Part shown: positions 9,979-22,281 of the stretch, in pieces
Layout: the number at the start of each line of letters is the position of its first letter
Position numbering within the stretch: position 1 is the first letter of the stretch
Assembly: GCA_019695435.1 (NCBI GenBank)
Contig: JACTVF010000003.1
Location: forward strand, 1 to 25,290
Length of the DNA: 25,290 nucleotides
Reading direction: 5' to 3'
From: Methanoregulaceae archaeon
GTDB taxonomy: Archaea; Halobacteriota; Methanomicrobia; Methanomicrobiales; Methanospirillaceae
Translations under genes and position numbers: made by a program
Notes under the pieces: generated by a model
Told to the model about the DNA's origin: nothing
Database searches by the model: none
The model's input: only the letters and a program-made list of their open reading frames with translations

Positions 9979-10983
9979 TCAGAAAAACCACCAGACGCTC
10001 CTTTGCGGCCTCGCACCGGATCCTTTTCTTCCACGTTCCTTCCACCATACCTGCACCCGTTCCGGCAGGTTCACGAGCCCCTTTGGCAGGAAGATGATCG
10101 TGAGGATGAGAATGAATCCGACGATGACGTACCTGCCGAACGTGAGTCCCGTTTCCTTGAGCCCCTCCCAGATGATCGTGAGCACGATCGTCCCGATGAC
10201 CGGTCCTGCAATGGTACCGAGGCCCCCGAGGATTACATAGGTAATTGGCCAGAACGAGTTGTTGACCCCATACAGATCCGGGGTCAGGTAGCCGATATGG
10301 TAAATCTGCAGTGCACCGGCGACCCCGGCGAGGTAGGCACTCATGGCAAACGCGAGGAGGCGGTAACGGACAGGATCGACCCCGGCAGCCCGGGCTTCCA
10401 GCTCGTTCTCCCGGATTGCGAGAAACGCAAGGCCGATACGGGACTTCATGATATACCAGATCGCGGCCAAAGAAGCGATCGTAATAACGAGAACCACGTA
10501 GTATTCGATGAACTGGTAACCGGGGATGGACGGGCTGATGAGCCGGGGCGAGGCGATCCCATCCCAGCCGCCGGTGACCGGGGCGAGAACGCTGACGGTC
10601 AGCGTCTGGACGATAATGGCAAACCCGAAGGTGACCATCGCGAGGAACCACTCCTTGAGCCGGACGCAGGTAAGCCCGATGAGGATACCGATGAACGCGG
10701 CGACTGCGGCCCCGAGGAAGATGGTAACAAACGGGGGAATCCCGCACCGCACCGCAATCAGGGTTGCAGCATATGCACCGATGCCGAAGAATGCAGCGTG
10801 ACCGAGCGATCCCTGGCCGGTGAATGCAAGCAGGTTCCACGCCGATGCAAAGATGATGGATATAAGCATCAGAACGAGGAGATTTAAGAGGAACATATTG
10901 TCCGAGAGGAAAGGTAAGGCCGCGGCGATAACGAGTGTTGCAGCGAGCCCGTATTTTGTCAGCTTATCCCGCCCGAAGTTCAC
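9979..10983 (-). CDS. livM: Branched-chain amino-acid-type ABC transporter permease LivM
   Basis: This 334-residue membrane permease has about ten hydrophobic segments. Family signatures are GQGSLGHAAFFGIGAYAA near the N-terminus and the cytoplasmic coupling loop AIRENELEARAAGVDPVRYR. With LivH it forms the translocation channel. It starts with GTG at 10983, supported by a GAGGG ribosome site a few bases upstream, and lies 6 bases after the livH stop. The last 20 residues (RKGSGARPQRSVWWFF) are basic and not part of the family core. Confidence 0.92.
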   Translation of the reverse strand: MNFGRDKLTKYGLAATLVIAAALPFLSDNMFLLNLLVLMLISIIFASAWNLLAFTGQGSLGHAAFFGIGAYAATLIAVRCGIPPFVTIFLGAAVAAFIGILIGLTCVRLKEWFLAMVTFGFAIIVQTLTVSVLAPVTGGWDGIASPRLISPSIPGYQFIEYYVVLVITIASLAAIWYIMKSRIGLAFLAIRENELEARAAGVDPVRYRLLAFAMSAYLAGVAGALQIYHIGYLTPDLYGVNNSFWPITYVILGGLGTIAGPVIGTIVLTIIWEGLKETGLTFGRYVIVGFILILTIIFLPKGLVNLPERVQVWWKERGRKGSGARPQRSVWWFF

Positions 10984-10989
10984 GATCCC

Positions 10990-11868
10990 TCAATCCCCCT
11001 TCTCCCCGAACAACCCGGTCGGCCGGATGACAAGGACGACGATCAGGATAATAAACGAGACCGCGTCCTTCCATATCCCGCCGAGAAGGAACGCCGCTCC
11101 GTTCTCGGCAATACCCATCAGGAGCCCGCCGATGATCGCACCCGGGATACTGCCGAGCCCGCCAAGGATAATAATGGTAAAAGCCTTCACCGCCGGCATC
11201 GATCCTATGTACGGGTTGAAGACCTGCCCGCTCACCACCCAGAGTGTCCCTGCCGCGGCCGCGAGCGCGCACCCGAGGCCGAAGCTGATGACATCGATCC
11301 GCTCGACATCGATCCCGACGAGCATCGCCCCCTTTCGGTTCTGGCTCGTCGCCCGCATCTCCATGCCGGTCTTCGTCTTTTTGAGGAAGAGGTAGAGGGC
11401 AATGAGGATCATGGCGGTGAGGGCCACGATGATGATGTAATCGAGCGGGACGCTGAGCGGGCCGAGAGGGACCGTGATCCCGTCATAGGGACTCCTGACG
11501 CTCTGCCAGGAGTCCCCCCATATCATCGCGGCGCCATTCTGGAAGATATAGATGAGCCCGATGGAGAGGAAGATCTCGTTGAGTTTACCGGTGCCGAGGA
11601 TCGGCCGGAAACAGAGCCGTTCGACAACCGCCCCGATGCCGATGAGCGCGAGCATGGACACCAGGATGATCAGGTAGGGATTGATGCCGGTCAGGAAAAA
11701 GACTGTCGCGGTGATGTATGCACCGATCATCAGGAACTCCCCATGCGCGAAGTTGACGATCTTCATGACCCCGAAGATGAGGTTCAGGCCGGTGGCGAGC
11801 AGGATATAGATACAGCCGGCGTACAGCCCCCAGAACAGGATCTGCAGAAATATCCCAAGGTTGTCCAT
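10990..11868 (-). CDS. livH: Branched-chain amino-acid-type ABC transporter permease LivH
   Basis: This 292-residue permease has about eight membrane segments. It has the LivH signature GLNLIFGVMKIVNFAHGEF in the first third and the coupling loop MRATSQNRKGAMLVGIDVER, which contacts an ATPase subunit. The C-terminal RPTGLFGEKG block is standard for the family. It lies 68 bases after livK and 6 bases before livM. No strong ribosome site precedes the ATG. Confidence 0.92.
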   Translation of the reverse strand: MDNLGIFLQILFWGLYAGCIYILLATGLNLIFGVMKIVNFAHGEFLMIGAYITATVFFLTGINPYLIILVSMLALIGIGAVVERLCFRPILGTGKLNEIFLSIGLIYIFQNGAAMIWGDSWQSVRSPYDGITVPLGPLSVPLDYIIIVALTAMILIALYLFLKKTKTGMEMRATSQNRKGAMLVGIDVERIDVISFGLGCALAAAAGTLWVVSGQVFNPYIGSMPAVKAFTIIILGGLGSIPGAIIGGLLMGIAENGAAFLLGGIWKDAVSFIILIVVLVIRPTGLFGEKGD

Positions 11869-11936
11869 CGCTGCCTGCCGTAATTTTGTCTATGGTATGA
11901 AATCAGCTACCTTTGATAAAAAGGGATGGAACGGAT

Positions 11937-13268
11937 TTACGCGCTGCCGGCCGTATACCAAGAAGGCAGTGCAAAGTCCGTTGTCTTGAGGTTGTCCGGC
12001 CAGACGATCGAGGGCCGTGTCTCACCGATGGTCACGTTGTACGAGAGCTGCTCCATCCAGAGATCGAAGCTCGACTCCCGGAAGTCCGGTGAGAACGAGA
12101 TGGTCTGATTCTTCATCGCCTCGATGACCTGAGGCATATTCAGGTTGACAAGCGCCTGTTTCACTGCTGCCTTGTCCGTGGTCCCGGCATTGCCGATTGC
12201 CTGTGCCGCGATGAAAACTCCATCATAGGTAGAAGCACCCATCATGTCCGGGTAGGTTCCGAACTTGGCGAAGTATGCCTGCTTGAACGCGGCCTGATCA
12301 ACAGTGACTGGTCCTGTGGGAGCAGTGTAGGGTGAAAACCGGCTTTCGATAATCGATCCTTCGCCATACTGCCCGAGGTCCTTGTAGAACTGGGCATTGT
12401 CATTGTTTTCAGGGGAGAGGAAGATGGTGTTGAGGCCAATATCCCTGCGTGCCTGCGTGATGGCCGGGGCACCTTCATTCGGGAACGCACCGAGATACAG
12501 GGCATCAGGGTTTGCTGCCTTGATTGCGGTCAGCTGAGTCCTGAAATCGCTCTCGCCCATCTTGAAGCTCTGCTGGGAGACAAGAACAATATTGAGATTG
12601 TTCTTCGTGATCGTATTATTCACTGCAGTCTGGATCCCTTTCCCGAAGGCTGTGTCCTGGTAGAGCAGGGCAAGCCGGAACGGGCGAGCATCTGAAGCGT
12701 TGAGTTTTCCATTGACGGCAGGACGTATAACCTGGTCGATGAACTGTGTGGTGTACTGGCCGTATGTGTCGGTTGTCGGGCAGTGGTGGAAGATATAACT
12801 GGTATCAATATCGGTCCGGTGGGTGATAATGGGGCTCGATGCACCGGTAACGATGTACGGCACCTTGTACTCAGCGATGGTCTGTTCGTACGCTGAGGTA
12901 ACCGCGCTCGAATACCCGCCGACGAGGATATCAACATTGTCGTCCGTGATCAGCTTGGTCGCTGCGTCCTGCCCGCCAGCCTGAGTGGACTCGTCGTCTC
13001 CAACGATCAGCTTGATCTGGGCCTTCGAACCATCTTTTAAGGTGACGCCGCCACCTGCGTTGATCTTGTCGGCGGCGACCTGTGCCGACTGCCACATGCT
13101 GGTGCCGACATTGCTCGCCGGGCCGGTCAGCGATGCGATGACACCGACCTTGATGACGCCCTGAGATGCCGATGTCGTCTGCTGCTGCGTAGCTGCTTGC
13201 TGGGTACAGCCGGCAATGAGTGCGGCCATGATGAGCAGGACCGCGATGAAAAGAACCTGATATTTCAT
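11937..13268 (-). CDS. livK: Branched-chain amino-acid-type ABC transporter substrate-binding lipoprotein LivK
   Basis: This 443-residue protein begins MKYQVLFIAVLLIMAALIAG followed by Cys21, a lipoprotein signal peptide with an LIAGC lipobox. A Gln/Thr/Ser linker follows, then a type-I periplasmic-binding fold with the leading IKVGVIASLTGPASNVG typical of Leu/Ile/Val-binding proteins. It captures the solute outside the membrane and delivers it to LivHM; the solute could be branched-chain amino acids, other amino acids, amides or urea. The frame extends 10 codons upstream, but the ATG at 13268 gives a clean signal peptide and has GGGGGATGTGA just before it. It is the first gene of livKHM. Confidence 0.92.
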   Translation of the reverse strand: MKYQVLFIAVLLIMAALIAGCTQQAATQQQTTSASQGVIKVGVIASLTGPASNVGTSMWQSAQVAADKINAGGGVTLKDGSKAQIKLIVGDDESTQAGGQDAATKLITDDNVDILVGGYSSAVTSAYEQTIAEYKVPYIVTGASSPIITHRTDIDTSYIFHHCPTTDTYGQYTTQFIDQVIRPAVNGKLNASDARPFRLALLYQDTAFGKGIQTAVNNTITKNNLNIVLVSQQSFKMGESDFRTQLTAIKAANPDALYLGAFPNEGAPAITQARRDIGLNTIFLSPENNDNAQFYKDLGQYGEGSIIESRFSPYTAPTGPVTVDQAAFKQAYFAKFGTYPDMMGASTYDGVFIAAQAIGNAGTTDKAAVKQALVNLNMPQVIEAMKNQTISFSPDFRESSFDLWMEQLSYNVTIGETRPSIVWPDNLKTTDFALPSWYTAGSA

Positions 13269-13279
13269 TTCACATCCCC

Positions 13280-13347
13280 CTATGCTATGATATAGCAAGG
13301 CATAGTATCTGTTATTGGTTGACCTGAAAAAAATATCGATTTATATG
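13280..13347 (-). promoter_or_regulatory. livKHM promoter with nested inverted repeats in the leader
   Basis: A minus-strand TATA element, CATATAAAT (complement of 13339-13347), predicts transcription from about 13317 and a leader of about 49 bases. Within that leader lie two nested perfect inverted repeats: TGCTAT-GAT-ATAGCA (13283-13297) and CTATGC...GCATAG (13280-13285 and 13300-13305). They sit just before the ribosome site and could be a repressor site or an RNA structure. Confidence 0.4.
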
Positions 13348-15761: not shown

Positions 15762-17753
15762 TCACAGAGCCCGGGGCTCTGTCGGTTTTGCCAGGTTTAC
15801 CCGCTCAAGTGCGAGTGCCGCCTGGTTCGCAAATGCAGTGAGGATACGGGACTGATCGTACGTTATGACACCGTTTGGCTCGACCGGCTGAACACCCAGG
15901 ATTCCAAGTACTCCCCGGGAACTCTGGAGGGGAATATACCGGAGTTTTGATCCGTGCAGCGTATCGGTATCATAACCAGCGGTGGTGCCGTGCTGGAAGG
16001 CCCAGGTCGCCACGGCAATATCATCTGCATCAAGGACAAGCCCCGGGCTCTGCGCATGCACCGCCAGACGGCCGTTTTCCGGAAGGAAAAATGCACTCTC
16101 CCACTGGAAAATTTCCCGTATGTGCTGCGAAACCGCGTTCATGATCGTCGCAGCATCCACAGCACCGGCAAGATCCTGCGAGAGTGCATAGAGCGTGCCG
16201 GTTTCTTTTTCACGGATCTGCGCTGCATCGGCATGCCTGCGTGCCTGGGCGACAAGCAGGCTGATCACGGTACCCACGATAATCATGCCGGCAAAGGTGA
16301 TGAGGTACTCCGTGTTGGAGGGTCGGAAGGTAAAGTAGGGCGCCACAAAGAAGAAATTGAACGCGAGGACCCCGATAACTGAGGTAAAAATGGCGGGCCT
16401 GAGTCCCCGTTTGAACGCGATGACGACAACAGCAAGCAGGTACAGCATCACGACATTGACCGGGGAAATAAAGGAGTGGATCAGAAGGCCGATGATGGTG
16501 ACCGCAACGACAAGAATCAGGCTGTCCACGTAATCCCGGGGTGGCGTGGCGGGCAGCAGGGGTTCCAGGTCTTCTGGTGTTTCTGGCAGATCTTTACTGC
16601 TGCTGATCACGTACACGTCGATGGGCCCGCTGTTATGGATAAGCTGATCGACCACCGAGCCAAAGACATATTCCTGCCACCGGGGGCGCAGGGTCTTACC
16701 GATAATGATCCGGGTAACGTTATGCTGCCGTGCATACTCAAGGGCGGAATTTGCCACGTTGAGTCCGAACACGCTGGCGGTCGTCGCCCCCAGTTTTTCT
16801 GCAAGCTGGAGCGACCGGTCGACCTGCTCCTTTGCTTTCTGTGAGAGCCGGTGGTGTGCCGGTGTTTCGACGTAGAGTGCACACCAGCGTGCATTGATCC
16901 GGTCAGCCTGCCGGCGGGCCGTCCGTATCAGCCGCTCAGCGAGAGGCCCCGGGCCGATGCAGACCAGCAGGTATTCACCGACCGGCCAGGGGCCGGGGAT
17001 CGAACGCGTCTGCATATACTCGAGCATCTGGTTGTCCACGCGTTCTGCCGCCCGGCGCAGCGCAAGTTCACGGAGTGCATAGATATTTCCCTCGTTAAAG
17101 AACTGTTCTATCGCCCGGGCTGCCATATCAGGAACGTATACTTTGCCTTCGCGGAGGCGCTGGAGAAGTTCAGGTGGTGCCAGATCGACCACCTCGATCT
17201 CGGCTGCCTCGTCGATCACCCGGTCGGGGACCTTTTCCTGCATGATGACACCGGTGATCCGGGCAACCACATCGTTGAGGCTCTCAATGTGCTGCACATT
17301 GAGCGTGGAATATACGTCGATCCCTTCCGCGAGCAGTTCTTCTACATCCTGGTACCGTTTCGGGTGCCGGGAGCCGGGTACGTTTGTGTGGGCCAGTTCA
17401 TCAACAAGGACAAGCTGTGGGTGTGCGGCAAGGATTGCATCAAGATCCATTTCGGGAAGTTTTACCCCATGGTACTCGATACTGCGGATGGGAATGGAAG
17501 AGATCCCCTCCATGAGTTCCTCGGTCTCACGCCTCCCATGGTGCTCGATATACCCGATCCTGACATCGATACCTTCATCTTTCCTGAGATGTGCTGCCTT
17601 AAGCATCTCGTAGGTCTTCCCCACTCCCGCGATGTAGCCAAGGAAAATCTTGAGTTTGCCCCGCTTTTTCTGCAACTCTTCTTTTTGTACGCACGCAAGC
17701 AGTGCATCGGGGTCAGGGCGCTGGTGCTGACGACAATCGGCGGGGGCGGGCAT
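15762..17753 (-). CDS. kdpD: Truncated KdpD-like K+ sensor without histidine kinase domain
   Basis: This 663-residue protein has the first three quarters of KdpD. It has the RPDPDALL start, Walker A IAGVGKT (41-47), Walker B LVLVDELAHTN (114-124), a universal-stress-protein-like domain (about 257-385), four DUF4118 membrane segments (about 410-503) and a GAF domain (about 520-651). It ends there. The HisKA and ATPase domains of full-length KdpD (E. coli, 894 residues) are absent and not encoded downstream, where the opposite strand carries another gene. No kdpE is present. It follows kdpB by 9 bases, so it is made with the pump. Related kinase-less KdpD proteins exist in other lineages; their output is not settled. 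Here it may bind or tune the pump, or signal through another protein. The Shine-Dalgarno site is weak. Confidence 0.88.
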   Translation of the reverse strand: MPAPADCRQHQRPDPDALLACVQKEELQKKRGKLKIFLGYIAGVGKTYEMLKAAHLRKDEGIDVRIGYIEHHGRRETEELMEGISSIPIRSIEYHGVKLPEMDLDAILAAHPQLVLVDELAHTNVPGSRHPKRYQDVEELLAEGIDVYSTLNVQHIESLNDVVARITGVIMQEKVPDRVIDEAAEIEVVDLAPPELLQRLREGKVYVPDMAARAIEQFFNEGNIYALRELALRRAAERVDNQMLEYMQTRSIPGPWPVGEYLLVCIGPGPLAERLIRTARRQADRINARWCALYVETPAHHRLSQKAKEQVDRSLQLAEKLGATTASVFGLNVANSALEYARQHNVTRIIIGKTLRPRWQEYVFGSVVDQLIHNSGPIDVYVISSSKDLPETPEDLEPLLPATPPRDYVDSLILVVAVTIIGLLIHSFISPVNVVMLYLLAVVVIAFKRGLRPAIFTSVIGVLAFNFFFVAPYFTFRPSNTEYLITFAGMIIVGTVISLLVAQARRHADAAQIREKETGTLYALSQDLAGAVDAATIMNAVSQHIREIFQWESAFFLPENGRLAVHAQSPGLVLDADDIAVATWAFQHGTTAGYDTDTLHGSKLRYIPLQSSRGVLGILGVQPVEPNGVITYDQSRILTAFANQAALALERVNLAKPTEPRAL
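15764..15782 (-). terminator. Perfect 19-base palindrome at the kdpD stop codon
   Basis: ACAGAGCCC-G-GGGCTCTGT forms a 9-base stem that includes the last kdpD codons and the first base of its TGA. A T-rich stretch (TCTTTTTCTCTCCC on the minus strand, about 15728-15741) follows roughly 25 bases later. It fits a terminator or an mRNA 3'-end structure for the kdp operon. Confidence 0.4.
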
Positions 17754-17762
17754 AGGACAGGT

Positions 17763-19862
17763 TCACACTCCAAGGAAGATAAGCAGCATATCGATGATCT
17801 TTATTCCGATGAAGGGGGCAATAATCCCGCCGACACCGTAGATCAGGACGTTGTTCCTTAATGCCTCTTCTGCCGACATCGCACGGTACTTCACACCCCG
17901 CAGGGCAAGCGGGATAAGCGCGACGATAATAATCGCGTTGAAGATCACGGCGGCAAGAATCCCGTTATGGAGACCGAGGATGTTGAGCGCAGTAAGAGAT
18001 GGGTACGTGGAGGCAAACGCGACCGGGATGATAGCGAAGTACTTGGCGATGTCGTTTGCTATGGAGAATGTCGTGAGCGCCCCCCGGGTCATCAGGAGCT
18101 GTTTTCCGATCTCTACGATCTCGATGAGCTTGGTCGGGTTGGAGTCGAGATCGATCATGTTCGCCGCCTCGCGGGCCGGCTGGGTCCCGGTGTTCATGGC
18201 AACCGCGACATCGGCCTGTGCAAGCGCCGGCGCATCGTTCGTCCCGTCCCCGGTCATGGCGACCATCCGCCCGCCCTGCTGGTACTCGCGGATCAGTTTG
18301 AGCTTGCTCTCGGGTGTGGCCTCGGCAAGGAAGTCATCGACCCCGGCCTCGGCCGCGATCGTTGCAGCGGTTAGCCGGTTATCCCCGGTGATCATGACCG
18401 TCTTGATGCCCATCTTTCTGAGCTGGATAAACCGTTCCTTGATCCCGCCTTTGACAATATCCTTTAAGTGGATGACCCCGAGCGCTTCCCCGTTCTGCGC
18501 AACAACCAGAGGGGTGCCACCGGCACGGGATATGGTGTCTACCGTCTCTTTGAGCTGGTCCGAGACGGTGTTCCCGCTGGACTGGATGTACTTAAACAGT
18601 GCATCGGCCGCACCTTTCCGGATATGGAGGTCGCCCTGGTCGACGCCGCTCATCCGGGTCTGGCTGGAGAACGGGACGAACTGCATGCCGGCATCGGGCC
18701 CCGATGCACCGACCGTCCGGCCGCGGAGCTCGTACTTCTCTTTTGCGAGGACCACGATGCTGCGGCCCTCAGGCGTTTCATCGGCAAGAGAAGCGAGCTG
18801 CGCGACTCCCGCGAGATCCTCGATGGAGGTACCGTCCACCGGGATGAACTCAACTGCCTGCCGGTTCCCCAGCGTGATGGTCCCGGTCTTGTCAAGCAAA
18901 AGGACGTCCACATCCCCGGCAGCCTCGATGGCCCGGCCCGATGTCGTGATCACATTCCGCTGGATCAACCGGTCCATGCCCGCGATGCCAATCGCTGAGA
19001 GAAGCCCTCCGATGGTGGTCGGGGCGAGGCAGACAAAGAGCGCCACAAGTACCGTGACCGTGATCGTGGTCCCGGCGCCCGCGGCCTGGACGCTGTACGC
19101 GGAGAACGCATAGAGGGCTGCGGCGACAACGATAAAGATCGAGGTCAGGCCCAAGAGCAGGATGTTGAGCGCGATCTCATTGGGGGTCTTTTGCCGCTTT
19201 GCTCCCTCGATGAGGCTGATCATGTGGTCGAGGAATCCTTCGCCGGGGTTTGCGCTCACTCTGACGATCAGCCAGTCGGAGAGGATGATCGTCCCGCCCG
19301 TGACGGCACTCCGGTCTCCCCCGGCCTCGCGGATGACCGGGGCGCTCTCACCGGTGATTGCGCTCTCGTTGACCGATGCGATGCCTTCAAGGATCTCGCC
19401 GTCCACCGGAATTGCGTCGCCTGCCCTGACATAGAAGAGGTCGGATTTTTTTAACACCGATGAAGAGACGAGGGTAAAATCGGATTCCGCGGGCTCGCAC
19501 CCTTTCACGATCCGGTATTTCTCCTTCAGCCGCTTTGCGGTCGTGTCCTGCCGCATCTTCCGCAGCGACTCTGCCTGTGCCTTGCCCCGCCCCTCGGCAA
19601 GCGCCTCGGCAAAGTTGGCAAAGAGTACCGTGAACCAGAGCCATGCGGAGATGGCGCCGATAAAGCCGGCCGGCGCTTCACCGGCCCCGGTGAGCGCCTG
19701 GATGTACAGCACGGTGGTGATTGCGCTGCCGACCTCCACCGTGAACATTACCGGGTTCTGGATAAGCGTCCGGGGGTCGAGCTTGAGAACCGCATCCACG
19801 ACCGCACGCTGGTAGAGGCCCGGGACTGCCGCCGGGCTGCGGGGCTTTTTCACTTCAGACAT
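17763..19862 (-). CDS. kdpB: Potassium-transporting P-type ATPase, catalytic subunit KdpB
   Basis: This 699-residue P-type ATPase hydrolyses ATP to drive K+ uptake through KdpA. Key motifs are complete: TGES (170-173) in the actuator domain, the phosphorylated Asp324 in DKTGTIT, the nucleotide-domain segment ending [16 protein letters not shown] (492-499) and TGDGTNDAP (537-545). The TGES serine (Ser173) corresponds to the inhibitory phosphorylation site of E. coli KdpB. The frame extends to 19910, but the ATG at 19862 has GGAGG about 8 bases upstream and gives the normal MSEVKK start. It overlaps the kdpCA stop by 8 bases, indicating translational coupling. Confidence 0.95.
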
Positions 19863-22281
19863 GGACGAGACCTCCTGCAACCATTCCCATGTACTCCGCG
19901 ATAGGGCCAAGCGAGAGCGCCGGCAGGAAACTGAGCGCCCCCACGATCAGGATCACAAAAACCAGCCACAGGATAAAGAGCGGACGGTGGTCCCTGAGGG
20001 TCCCTTCGCTCGGGGGCACGATCTTTTTGGTCACGAGCGATCCGGCAAGAGCGAGGGTCAGGATAATGATCACGTAGCGCCCGATAAACATCGCGATCGC
20101 GGTGGTGATGTTGTAAAAGAGGCTGTTGGCATTCAGCCCGGCAAAGGCGCTGCCGTTATTCTGGGAAGCCGAGGTATACGCGTACAGGATCTCGGTAAAG
20201 CCGTGCGGCCCGGGGTTTGCGACGCCGGCCTGGCCGGCCGTCGTGATGACGGCAAGGGACGTGAACGCGAGGATCATGATGATCGGGATGAGGATGATGA
20301 TCGTGGCCATCTTCATCTCGTACTGCTCGATCTTCTTGCCATAGAGCTCGGGAGTCCGTCCCACCATCAGGCCGGCAATAAACATCGCAATGATCACAAA
20401 GATGAGCATGCCGTAAAGGCCGGATCCGACGCCTCCAAAGACCACTTCGCCCAGGTGCATGTCAAAGAGCACGATGCCGCCGGCCACCGGCATAAACGAG
20501 TCATGCATGGAATTGACCGCGCCGCAGGATGTGCTGGTGGTGATTACGGCAAAGAGGGCAGAGGAGACAGTCCCGAACCTCACCTCTTTTCCCTCCATGT
20601 TCCCACCTGACTGGAGCGCCGAGGGCGTCTGGTCGACCCCGAGCGGCGCAAGCGCCGGGTTGCCTGCCTGTTCGGACCAGATAGCAAGGCCGAGGAGAGG
20701 CAAAAAGATCAGGGTCATGGCAAGGATCAGGGCAACACCCTTGCGCCTGGAGCCGATCATGGTCCCGAACGTGATGCAGAGTGCGGCGGGGATAATGATC
20801 ATGGCAAACATTTCGACAAAGTCTGAAAACGGCGTGGGATTCTCCAGCGGGTGGGCCGAGTTGGCGTTGTAATATCCCCCGCCGTTTGTCCCGAGCATCT
20901 TGATGGCGATCTGCGAGGCGACCGGCCCGAGCGGGATGGACTGGGTGGTGACGAGTGTTCCCGTGGTGTCATTGACCGGATCAAGGAGCGGCACGGTGAC
21001 CGGCCCCGCAAAGGTCTGGGGCGTGCCCTGCGAGACGAGCACAAGGGAGATGACCAGAGCAATGGGCAGGAGGATCATAACGCTGCGCACCAGAAGCACC
21101 CAGAAGTTGCCGATGGTCGAGGCTGACCTGCGCGAGAACGCATAGATGAGTGCGATAAGAACGGCAAGCCCGACTGCCGCAGAGATAAAGTTCTGGACAA
21201 CGAGGCCGGCCATCTGCGTGAAGTAGCTGACGGTTACTTCCGGCACATATGCCTGCCAGTTGGTGTTGGTCGCAAAACTGATCGCGGTGTTGAGCGAAAG
21301 ATCCCAGGGAACAGCCCCGAGTCCTGCCGGGTTGAGGGGCAGGAATTGCTGCACTTCCTGGAGGATAAATACGGCGGCAATACAGGGGATGGCAAAGACC
21401 ATGACGGCGACGGCAAACTGCTTCCAGTCCATCTCCTCTCCGGCTGCAACCCCACAGACGGTAAGGACTCGTGTTTCGAGCCAGCCGAGAACCGGGGAGA
21501 GGCTGTTTGGCTTACCGGTGAAGATCTTTGCCATCCATGCACCGAGGGGTATTGAAATGAGTGCGACGATGACAATGAAGAGGATCACTTGGATCCAGTC
21601 TGCGATCCGCATGCCAAAAACGAGATCCGGGGGGTGTGCAGTAAGGGGGGATGATCCGGTATGGGGCACGGAGACGGTATGCTCCGAAAGATCGTCAAGG
21701 GCAAGGTTCAGCGAGAGGACGTTGACCCGGGGTTCGCCAAAGATCCCAAACTGGCGGGGCTCGGTCTGCGCGGCAATGAGTGCTGATACGTCGGATACGG
21801 ACAGGTTACGTTCGCGGGCGACGCGGGGCGCCTGGTAGTACGCGGCGGCGACCGAGATGTCCGGGTCAAGGCCGCTTCCCGATGCAGTGACAAGATCAAC
21901 CGGGATCTCATTTGTGTTACCGGGATCGACAGCGTGGAGGGCATCGATCCGGGCCTGTACCTGCTGCACGAGCGCCGGGTTATTGGGCCCGAGATTGGAC
22001 CCGGTTGATGACCCGGCATTATACGGTACCGGCGTTGTTGCGGAGGGACGGCCCCAGAAATACTGCGGTGACGAGAACGGCTGGCCGACCTGCGATGACC
22101 CGGCCACCTGCCCGTCATGCTGCAGGAGGTCCCCATTTGCCTGGGCGGGGAATACCACCTGGGAAATACCGGTGACAACAAGCGGGTACAGGATGCCCAC
22201 GACGAGCGTGAGCAGCAGGAAGATCAGAACTGCTGGTTTTACCTGTCTTTTTATCAGTGCCCCGATCGAATCGGAAGTCAT
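19855..22281 (-). CDS. KdpC-KdpA fusion: chaperone and K+-channel subunits of Kdp ATPase in one polypeptide
   Basis: This 808-residue protein joins a whole KdpC to a whole KdpA. Residues 1-200 are KdpC: one membrane helix (about 17-40), FPAQANG (44-50), FWGRPSAT (75-82), [15 protein letters not shown] (129-143) and the final [14 protein letters not shown] Ser/Pro/Thr-rich linker (about 201-225) follows. Residues about 226-808 are KdpA with all four pore signatures: TNTNWQ (338-343), [15 protein letters not shown] (464-478), TSCGAVN (584-590) and NNGSAFAG (708-715). The usual Phe-Phe after the second filter is Tyr-Tyr. KdpC normally has its C-terminus outside and KdpA its N-terminus outside, so the fusion fits the membrane topology. 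GAGGT precedes the ATG by 9 bases. It is the first gene of an operon with kdpB and kdpD; no KdpF is seen. An internal ATG at residue 224 lacks a ribosome site. Confidence 0.93.

Follow-up and report, generated by a model that had tools for sequence, protein, structure and literature searches.

A fused kdpC-kdpA gene in the potassium pump operon of a methanogen lineage

Kdp systems usually, though not by definition, have KdpA and KdpC as separate polypeptides. A single reading frame that appears to hold both raises the question of whether the join is real and, if so, what kind of pump it would make. Such a frame, here called kdpCA, lies in the window, ie the whole stretch of 25,290 nucleotides (nt) analysed from a Methanoregulaceae archaeon (assembly GCA_019695435.1, contig JACTVF010000003.1, positions 1 to 25,290). 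From sequence comparison we put at about 0.85 the probability that kdpCA is a genuine, inherited gene fusion whose product, together with KdpB, would make a two-polypeptide high-affinity K+ uptake pump, probably with one origin.

An earlier note on this DNA had described a complete KdpC followed in frame by a complete KdpA with all four pore signatures, and the Pfam matches, NCBIfam matches and motif positions agree on that description. Pfam KdpC (PF02669) matched residues 15-196 with 253 bits, covering model positions 2-181 of 182, and Pfam KdpA (PF03814) matched residues 234-798 with 766 bits, covering positions 2-548 of 548. The NCBIfam model TIGR00681 (kdpC) was above its cut-off at residues 12-197, and TIGR00680 (kdpA) gave 705 bits at residues 225-799, against a cut-off of 387.7. 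The pore signatures, which were selected with the help of an alignment to KdpA in the PDB, are TNTNWQ at residue 338, GTNGGG at 464, TSCGAV at 584 and NNGSAF at 708. A KdpC should have a single N-terminal helix and an outer domain; the near full-length match to PF02669 is accompanied by a helix predicted close to the start of the protein. Where two polypeptides would usually be found there is thus one frame of 808 residues. Its parts, and the two genes that follow it, are listed in Table 1.

Table 1. Window positions of kdpCA, of its parts and of the genes that follow it (aa, amino acids).
Feature	Position	Strand	Basis
kdpCA, fused KdpC-KdpA gene, 808 aa	19855..22281	-	open frame, ATG start; Pfam and NCBIfam
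KdpC part, residues 12-200, predicted membrane helix 18-36	21682..22248	-	NF001454, TIGR00681, PF02669; hydropathy
Linker, about residues 198-226	21604..21690	-	alignment of 36 fused rows; dN/dS about 0.31
Internal ATG, Met224	21610..21612	-	Met in 13/36 rows; start-signal comparison
KdpA part, residues 225-799, ten predicted membrane helices, four pore signatures	19885..21609	-	TIGR00680, PF03814; motifs, hydropathy
kdpB, 699 aa, ATG at 19862, 8-nt overlap with kdpCA	17763..19862	-	TIGR01497; TGES, DKTGT; start chosen from sequence
KdpD-like gene, 663 aa; KdpD, Usp, DUF4118 and GAF domains; G-x5-GKT and VLVDE Walker motifs	15762..17753	-	Pfam, NCBIfam; motifs

The stretch between the two parts was examined in an alignment of 36 fused rows, ie the window and 35 non-duplicate loci. 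The rows were picked for having KdpC and KdpA in one frame, and therefore the openness of the linker in all of them is no test in itself. Approximately 26 residues separate the parts, position 188 of the PDB KdpC corresponding to about residue 198 and position 4 of the PDB KdpA to about residue 225. Between fixed columns the stretch is 25-34 residues long, and its length differs only in frame. The individual residues change freely from row to row and the overall richness stays (Pro 14%, Ser 14%, Ala 9% and Thr 9%), which bears out the Ser/Pro/Thr-rich linker of the earlier note. The ratio of non-synonymous to synonymous substitution rates (dN/dS), taken from 19 hand-picked pairs, some of which share rows, was 0.31 in the linker, compared to 0.13 in KdpC and 0.10 in KdpA. 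On these values the linker behaves as protein.

Translation of KdpA on its own from Met224 had been named in the earlier note as an outcome that would undo the fusion. If KdpA were also, or only, made from a start codon inside the linker, the working complex would have unfused C and A. Met224 does sit right at the beginning of KdpA, and in the stretch inspected at least one ATG, GTG or TTG codon is present in 31 of the 36 rows. However, the other five have no start codon there, and column 224 is not conserved, being Met in 13 rows, Leu in 12, Ile in six, Val in three, and Gly and Arg in one each. A Shine-Dalgarno match of at least 4 bases was present at the best internal site in 8 of 36 rows, and one of at least 6 bases in none. 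The corresponding figures were 27/34 and 6/34 at the start of kdpCA, and 27/31 and 14/31 at kdpB; the comparison is a modest and rough one, in which the real starts were also the best of several candidate codons and the stretches were of other lengths. Together with the in-frame linker and its dN/dS, these results make separate translation from Met224 unlikely, and give an internal linker start in general a slim chance.

An equally slim chance attaches to a second alternative, which would also count against a pump of two polypeptides: the chain is made whole, and an extracellular protease then cuts the linker to leave an ordinary KdpABC complex. The predicted outside location of the linker, and its high content of Pro, Ser, Ala and Thr, could suit such cutting. 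On the other hand, no conserved cleavage motif was seen when the alignment was inspected by eye, and the length of the linker is roughly kept while its sequence drifts, as would be expected of a tether.

The order of the two parts can be compared with the predicted topology. Of the 11 helices predicted from hydropathy, KdpC has one and KdpA the other ten. Each of the six inner loops has 2-4 Lys/Arg and the outer loops have 0-2, save for the KdpC domain, which has 8 Lys/Arg as opposed to 17 Asp/Glu. With eleven helices and positive-inside loops, everything from the KdpC domain through the linker to the point where KdpA begins is placed outside, so that KdpC can be tethered to the front of KdpA with no additional helix. 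The reverse arrangement would require a connection between the outer end of KdpA and the inner N-terminus of KdpC. The N-terminus of KdpA lies outside in E. coli. The proposal that C before A is the order which suits the topology therefore stands, as far as helix prediction goes.

The spread of proteins with both KdpC and KdpA through archaeal genomes, which the earlier note had wished to see mapped, was determined first of all for the order, Methanomicrobiales. KdpC was found in 72 of 232 genomes, fused to KdpA in 35 and unfused in 34; the other three are unassigned, G137 and G138 being cut by a contig end and G139 not fetched. Six of the fused genomes are single-contig (G140, G158, G192, G193, G194 and G207), and in two (G171 and G204) the gene runs off its contig inside KdpA. 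Within the genus code of the window KdpC is present in 21 of 39 genomes and is fused in all 21. The fused genomes fall in family codes f1, f2 and f3, and the fused KdpA part from f3 is identical to that of a database protein named Methanocorpusculum vombati. In the 33 unfused genomes that were fetched KdpC has its own frame, after KdpB, and KdpA is visible ahead of KdpB in 28; the 34th (G073) was classed from its frames alone, without fetching the locus. The gene order is thus A-B-C-D in unfused and CA-B-D in fused operons, with KdpD out of view or absent in some. An apparently unfused KdpA in G141 was rejected, as its frame reaches the contig end and still has linker residues, ie it is a cut fused gene. 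The single-contig genome G158, of the same genus as the window, has two fused kdp sets (L097 and L098), one of them with no KdpD gene in the stretch read.

As 34 of the 72 genomes with KdpC in the order are unfused, and the frames are separate in 41 of 41 bacterial loci, the fusion is not the usual form of Kdp, as the earlier note had surmised. Draft genomes do carry frame errors, and the KdpA of some database members is apparently cut by a frame change, but the chance that an assembly or sequencing artefact erased a stop codon is negligible, since 35 genomes of the order, the six single-contig ones included, and 258 database proteins share the join.

Some observations in these genomes weigh against a working, inherited fusion. 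The pump seems dispensable, because 18 of the 39 genomes of the genus code show no KdpC, some of the assemblies being incomplete. The window's own assembly holds a second fused kdpCA-B-D set (L116, G000:C357:4000-11952) in which KdpC is split over two overlapping frames; this is either a broken paralogue or a contig of another strain. In the relative G168 (L090), which is counted among the 35 fused genomes, the KdpA part is broken, the break lying further into KdpA than the contig ends mentioned above.

Three protein database searches were made with words from the KdpC part, against long proteins only, so that fusions were favoured by design. The best 120 of 629, 338 and 486 matches were taken; in the 338-match search, scoring was confined to 8000 candidates sharing most words. 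These best matches included 265 different long KdpC-bearing proteins, of which 258 have C then A, none A then C, six KdpC with KdpB and one KdpC with KdpD. C-A joins were still mostly obtained among the best 120 when the query was the KdpC of P0217, a bacterial-looking protein. The linker of the database C-A proteins is 24-34 residues long, and the row nearest to their KdpA part was a fused one for 256 of the 258 and a bacterial one for two. In P0217, P0230, P0235, P0236, P0241, P0258 and P0269 the partner of KdpC (KdpD in one, KdpB in six) is its neighbour in the usual gene order, and these proteins may be frame errors or other fusions. Six fused proteins (P0012, P0035, P0043, P0127, P0205 and P0068) have a KdpA cut short with, by eye, an apparent out-of-frame tail, for which assembly indels are the likely cause. 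Where the source database showed a name for the fused proteins it was mostly KdpA or A chain; the KdpC part may therefore go unnoticed, and the genomes may be scored as lacking KdpC.

Genomes outside the order were also sampled. A draw from the whole phylum had KdpC in 36 of 392 genomes, the longest KdpC frame outside the order being 392 aa, too short for a C-A fusion. In the class of G417 it was present in 32 of 219 genomes, with a longest frame of 390 aa and no C-A fusion. Whole-genome sampling of bacteria covered Pseudomonadota, Chloroflexota and Bacillota (the phyla of G541, G542 and G544, respectively). No C-A fusion was found in Chloroflexota (KdpC in 57/201 genomes, longest frame 529 aa) or in Bacillota (18/199, 232 aa). 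Pseudomonadota had KdpC in 134 of 398 genomes, and eight long frames were fetched, four of at least 690 aa and four shorter; none of the eight holds KdpA, and these candidates were dismissed as overlapping open frames. The 46 loci taken from named genomes comprise four complete fusions, all in Methanoregula, one cut by a contig end, and the 41 bacterial loci, each with KdpC outside the frame of KdpA. Apparent C-A neighbours on plasmids were rejected as well: 467 records matched, 22 of them covering at least 80% of the query, and of five considered three were opened. In all three, two from Deinococcus and one from Burkholderia, KdpA and KdpC are separate genes, with KdpA first. The PDB gave no C-A fusion, the six distinct sequences matched being three KdpA and three KdpC chains, unjoined. 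None of the open-licence papers found by searching describes a C-A fusion in its title or in the opening of its abstract.

Quick trees on hand-chosen rows were used to look at the origin of the fusion. In the KdpA tree 27 fused rows lie on one side of a branch with a support of 100 in the Shimodaira-Hasegawa-like approximate likelihood ratio test (SH-aLRT), and in the KdpB tree 25 rows of the fused lineage do so, also with 100; no unfused row is among them in either case. A wider KdpA tree, to which eight chosen database proteins including the most divergent had been added, placed 21 fused rows on one side (SH-aLRT 99), with P0158, P0161, P0180 and P0213 as the deepest branch of the fused family. 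In the tree of KdpC, a short domain, the fused rows form two groups; the tree with a single clade is more likely and was not rejected by the approximately unbiased (AU) test (p = 0.77). A single origin of the fusion is the most likely, in a lineage of the pump that occurs today in Methanomicrobiales. Archaeal operons of family code f7, namely L147 (5938-6621, 3211-4905 and 1188-3233, minus strand) and L146, fall outside the fused clade in the trees. They have an unfused kdpC upstream of kdpA-kdpB, with a gap of about 1 kb, and in L146 there is a kdpA gene on either side of kdpB.

The highest identities of the window's proteins to the bacterial rows chosen were 74% for KdpB (L180), 58% for KdpA (L179) and 65% for KdpC (L047), and those to unfused methanogen rows were 62%, 49% and 51%, respectively. 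These values suggest, and no more than suggest, that the fused lineage came from bacteria, since a clade uniting the fused with the unfused methanogen pumps was not rejected by the AU tests (p = 0.43 for KdpA, 0.42 for KdpB and 0.59 for KdpC). An apparent rejection with KdpC (p = 0.003) was withdrawn; L139, L142 and L143, which group with the unfused rows, had been absent, and p rose to 0.59 once they were included. According to PMC4645200, kdp in methanogens has been suggested to stem from horizontal transfer. Our guess for the gene order is that CAB is a circular permutation of ABC, obtainable by tandem duplication and loss.

The neighbouring genes complete the set. KdpB scored 998 bits with TIGR01497, against a cut-off of 527.9, and contains the phosphorylation motif DKTGT as well as TGES. 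The KdpD-like gene begins 9 nt after kdpB. Its KdpD domain (PF02702) scored 318 bits, with GYIAGVGKT at residue 39 and VLVDE at 115, and no Pfam match to a histidine-kinase domain was found at E values up to 0.001. PMC11018627 describes a class of KdpDs whose kinase end is truncated. According to the same paper, the N-terminal domain of E. coli KdpD phosphorylates KdpB at Ser162, and KdpDs without histidine-kinase function have been proposed as purely post-translational regulators of the pump. By analogy, the KdpD of the window is probably a serine kinase which acts on KdpB only. As it keeps its Walker motifs, and KdpB keeps TGES, the same shut-off of the pump is likely here.

KdpF (PF09604) was above cut-off in none of 13 genomes, eight fused and five unfused, compared to 4 of 14 controls, so short a peptide being easily missed. 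Fifteen matches fell below the cut-off, none of them at a kdp locus. The result is weak, because the unfused operons give no KdpF either and the peptide is tiny. The window had no Rfam match at gathering score, and a scan for sigma-70 promoters and terminators yielded nothing of use. Elsewhere in the window (9979-13298, minus strand) are genes of a branched-chain-amino-acid/urea-type ABC transporter, one binding protein and two permeases, of ordinary appearance.

If kdpCA is translated as one chain, its N-terminus would stay in the cytoplasm, the KdpC helix would cross the membrane, the KdpC domain and then the linker would come to lie outside, and the ten helices of KdpA would follow. The chain would pair with KdpB, the ends of whose gene and of kdpCA overlap, to give a pump of two large polypeptides. 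The KdpA filter would select K+, and a tunnel between KdpA and KdpB would deliver it to the ATP-using KdpB, as in the E. coli KdpFABC complex. The tether should be tolerable, because the E. coli states solved so far show KdpC and most of KdpA in a constant relation to each other. We infer that the complex forms and transports K+, that KdpC sits on its own KdpA, and that fusion benefits assembly by securing the co-synthesis of the two parts. A broader proposal, to which we give slightly worse than even odds, is that this methanogen lineage has a two-polypeptide Kdp (KdpCA and KdpB) in which KdpC belongs permanently to the channel subunit, has dispensed with KdpF, and uses a kinase-less KdpD as a mere shut-off serine kinase.

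The fusion bears on KdpC, a little-understood subunit. Its role is called uncertain or less clear in two structural papers (PMC6255902, PMC12629597). The first recounts an early proposal of KdpC as an outer gate capping KdpA, and later cryo-EM in which KdpC was immobile and a role like that of a beta subunit was suggested; in the second, KdpC and KdpF are suggested to be structural chaperones. The proposals of the earlier note, that the fusion matters for stoichiometry and keeps the KdpC domain over the KdpA pore, may hold. A natural KdpC-KdpA tether speaks, on evolutionary grounds, for the two acting as a single fixed unit, and would be surprising to Kdp specialists. The fused protein offers a ready construct of fixed 1:1 stoichiometry for transport assays or cryo-EM, and a means of testing whether the placement of KdpC affects the affinity for K+.

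Among the known systems closest to the pump of the window is that of PDB entries 5mrw, 6hra, 7bgy and others, which we take to be E. coli KdpFABC. The KdpA of that complex aligns over residues 229-798 of the fused protein with 575 bits and its KdpC over residues 14-211 with 167 bits, and the pore, phosphorylation and TGES motifs are present in the window pump. The window differs in joining C and A in one chain and in having the gene order CA-B, and KdpF was not recognised there. Unfused operons of other Methanomicrobiales (such as L122, L127 and L135) have the same subunits followed by a KdpD of similar length, which aligns over most of that in the window. However, their genes run A-B-C-D in separate frames, and their KdpB is 58-62% identical to that of the window, compared to 73-92% within the chosen fused rows. 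Bacterial operons (L180 and L179 from Chloroflexota, L047 from Pseudomonadota, and others) also differ in having separate A, B and C genes. The fusion, which occurs in Methanoregula and in some methanogens related to it, is a real and conserved variation on a known pump rather than a new kind of machine.

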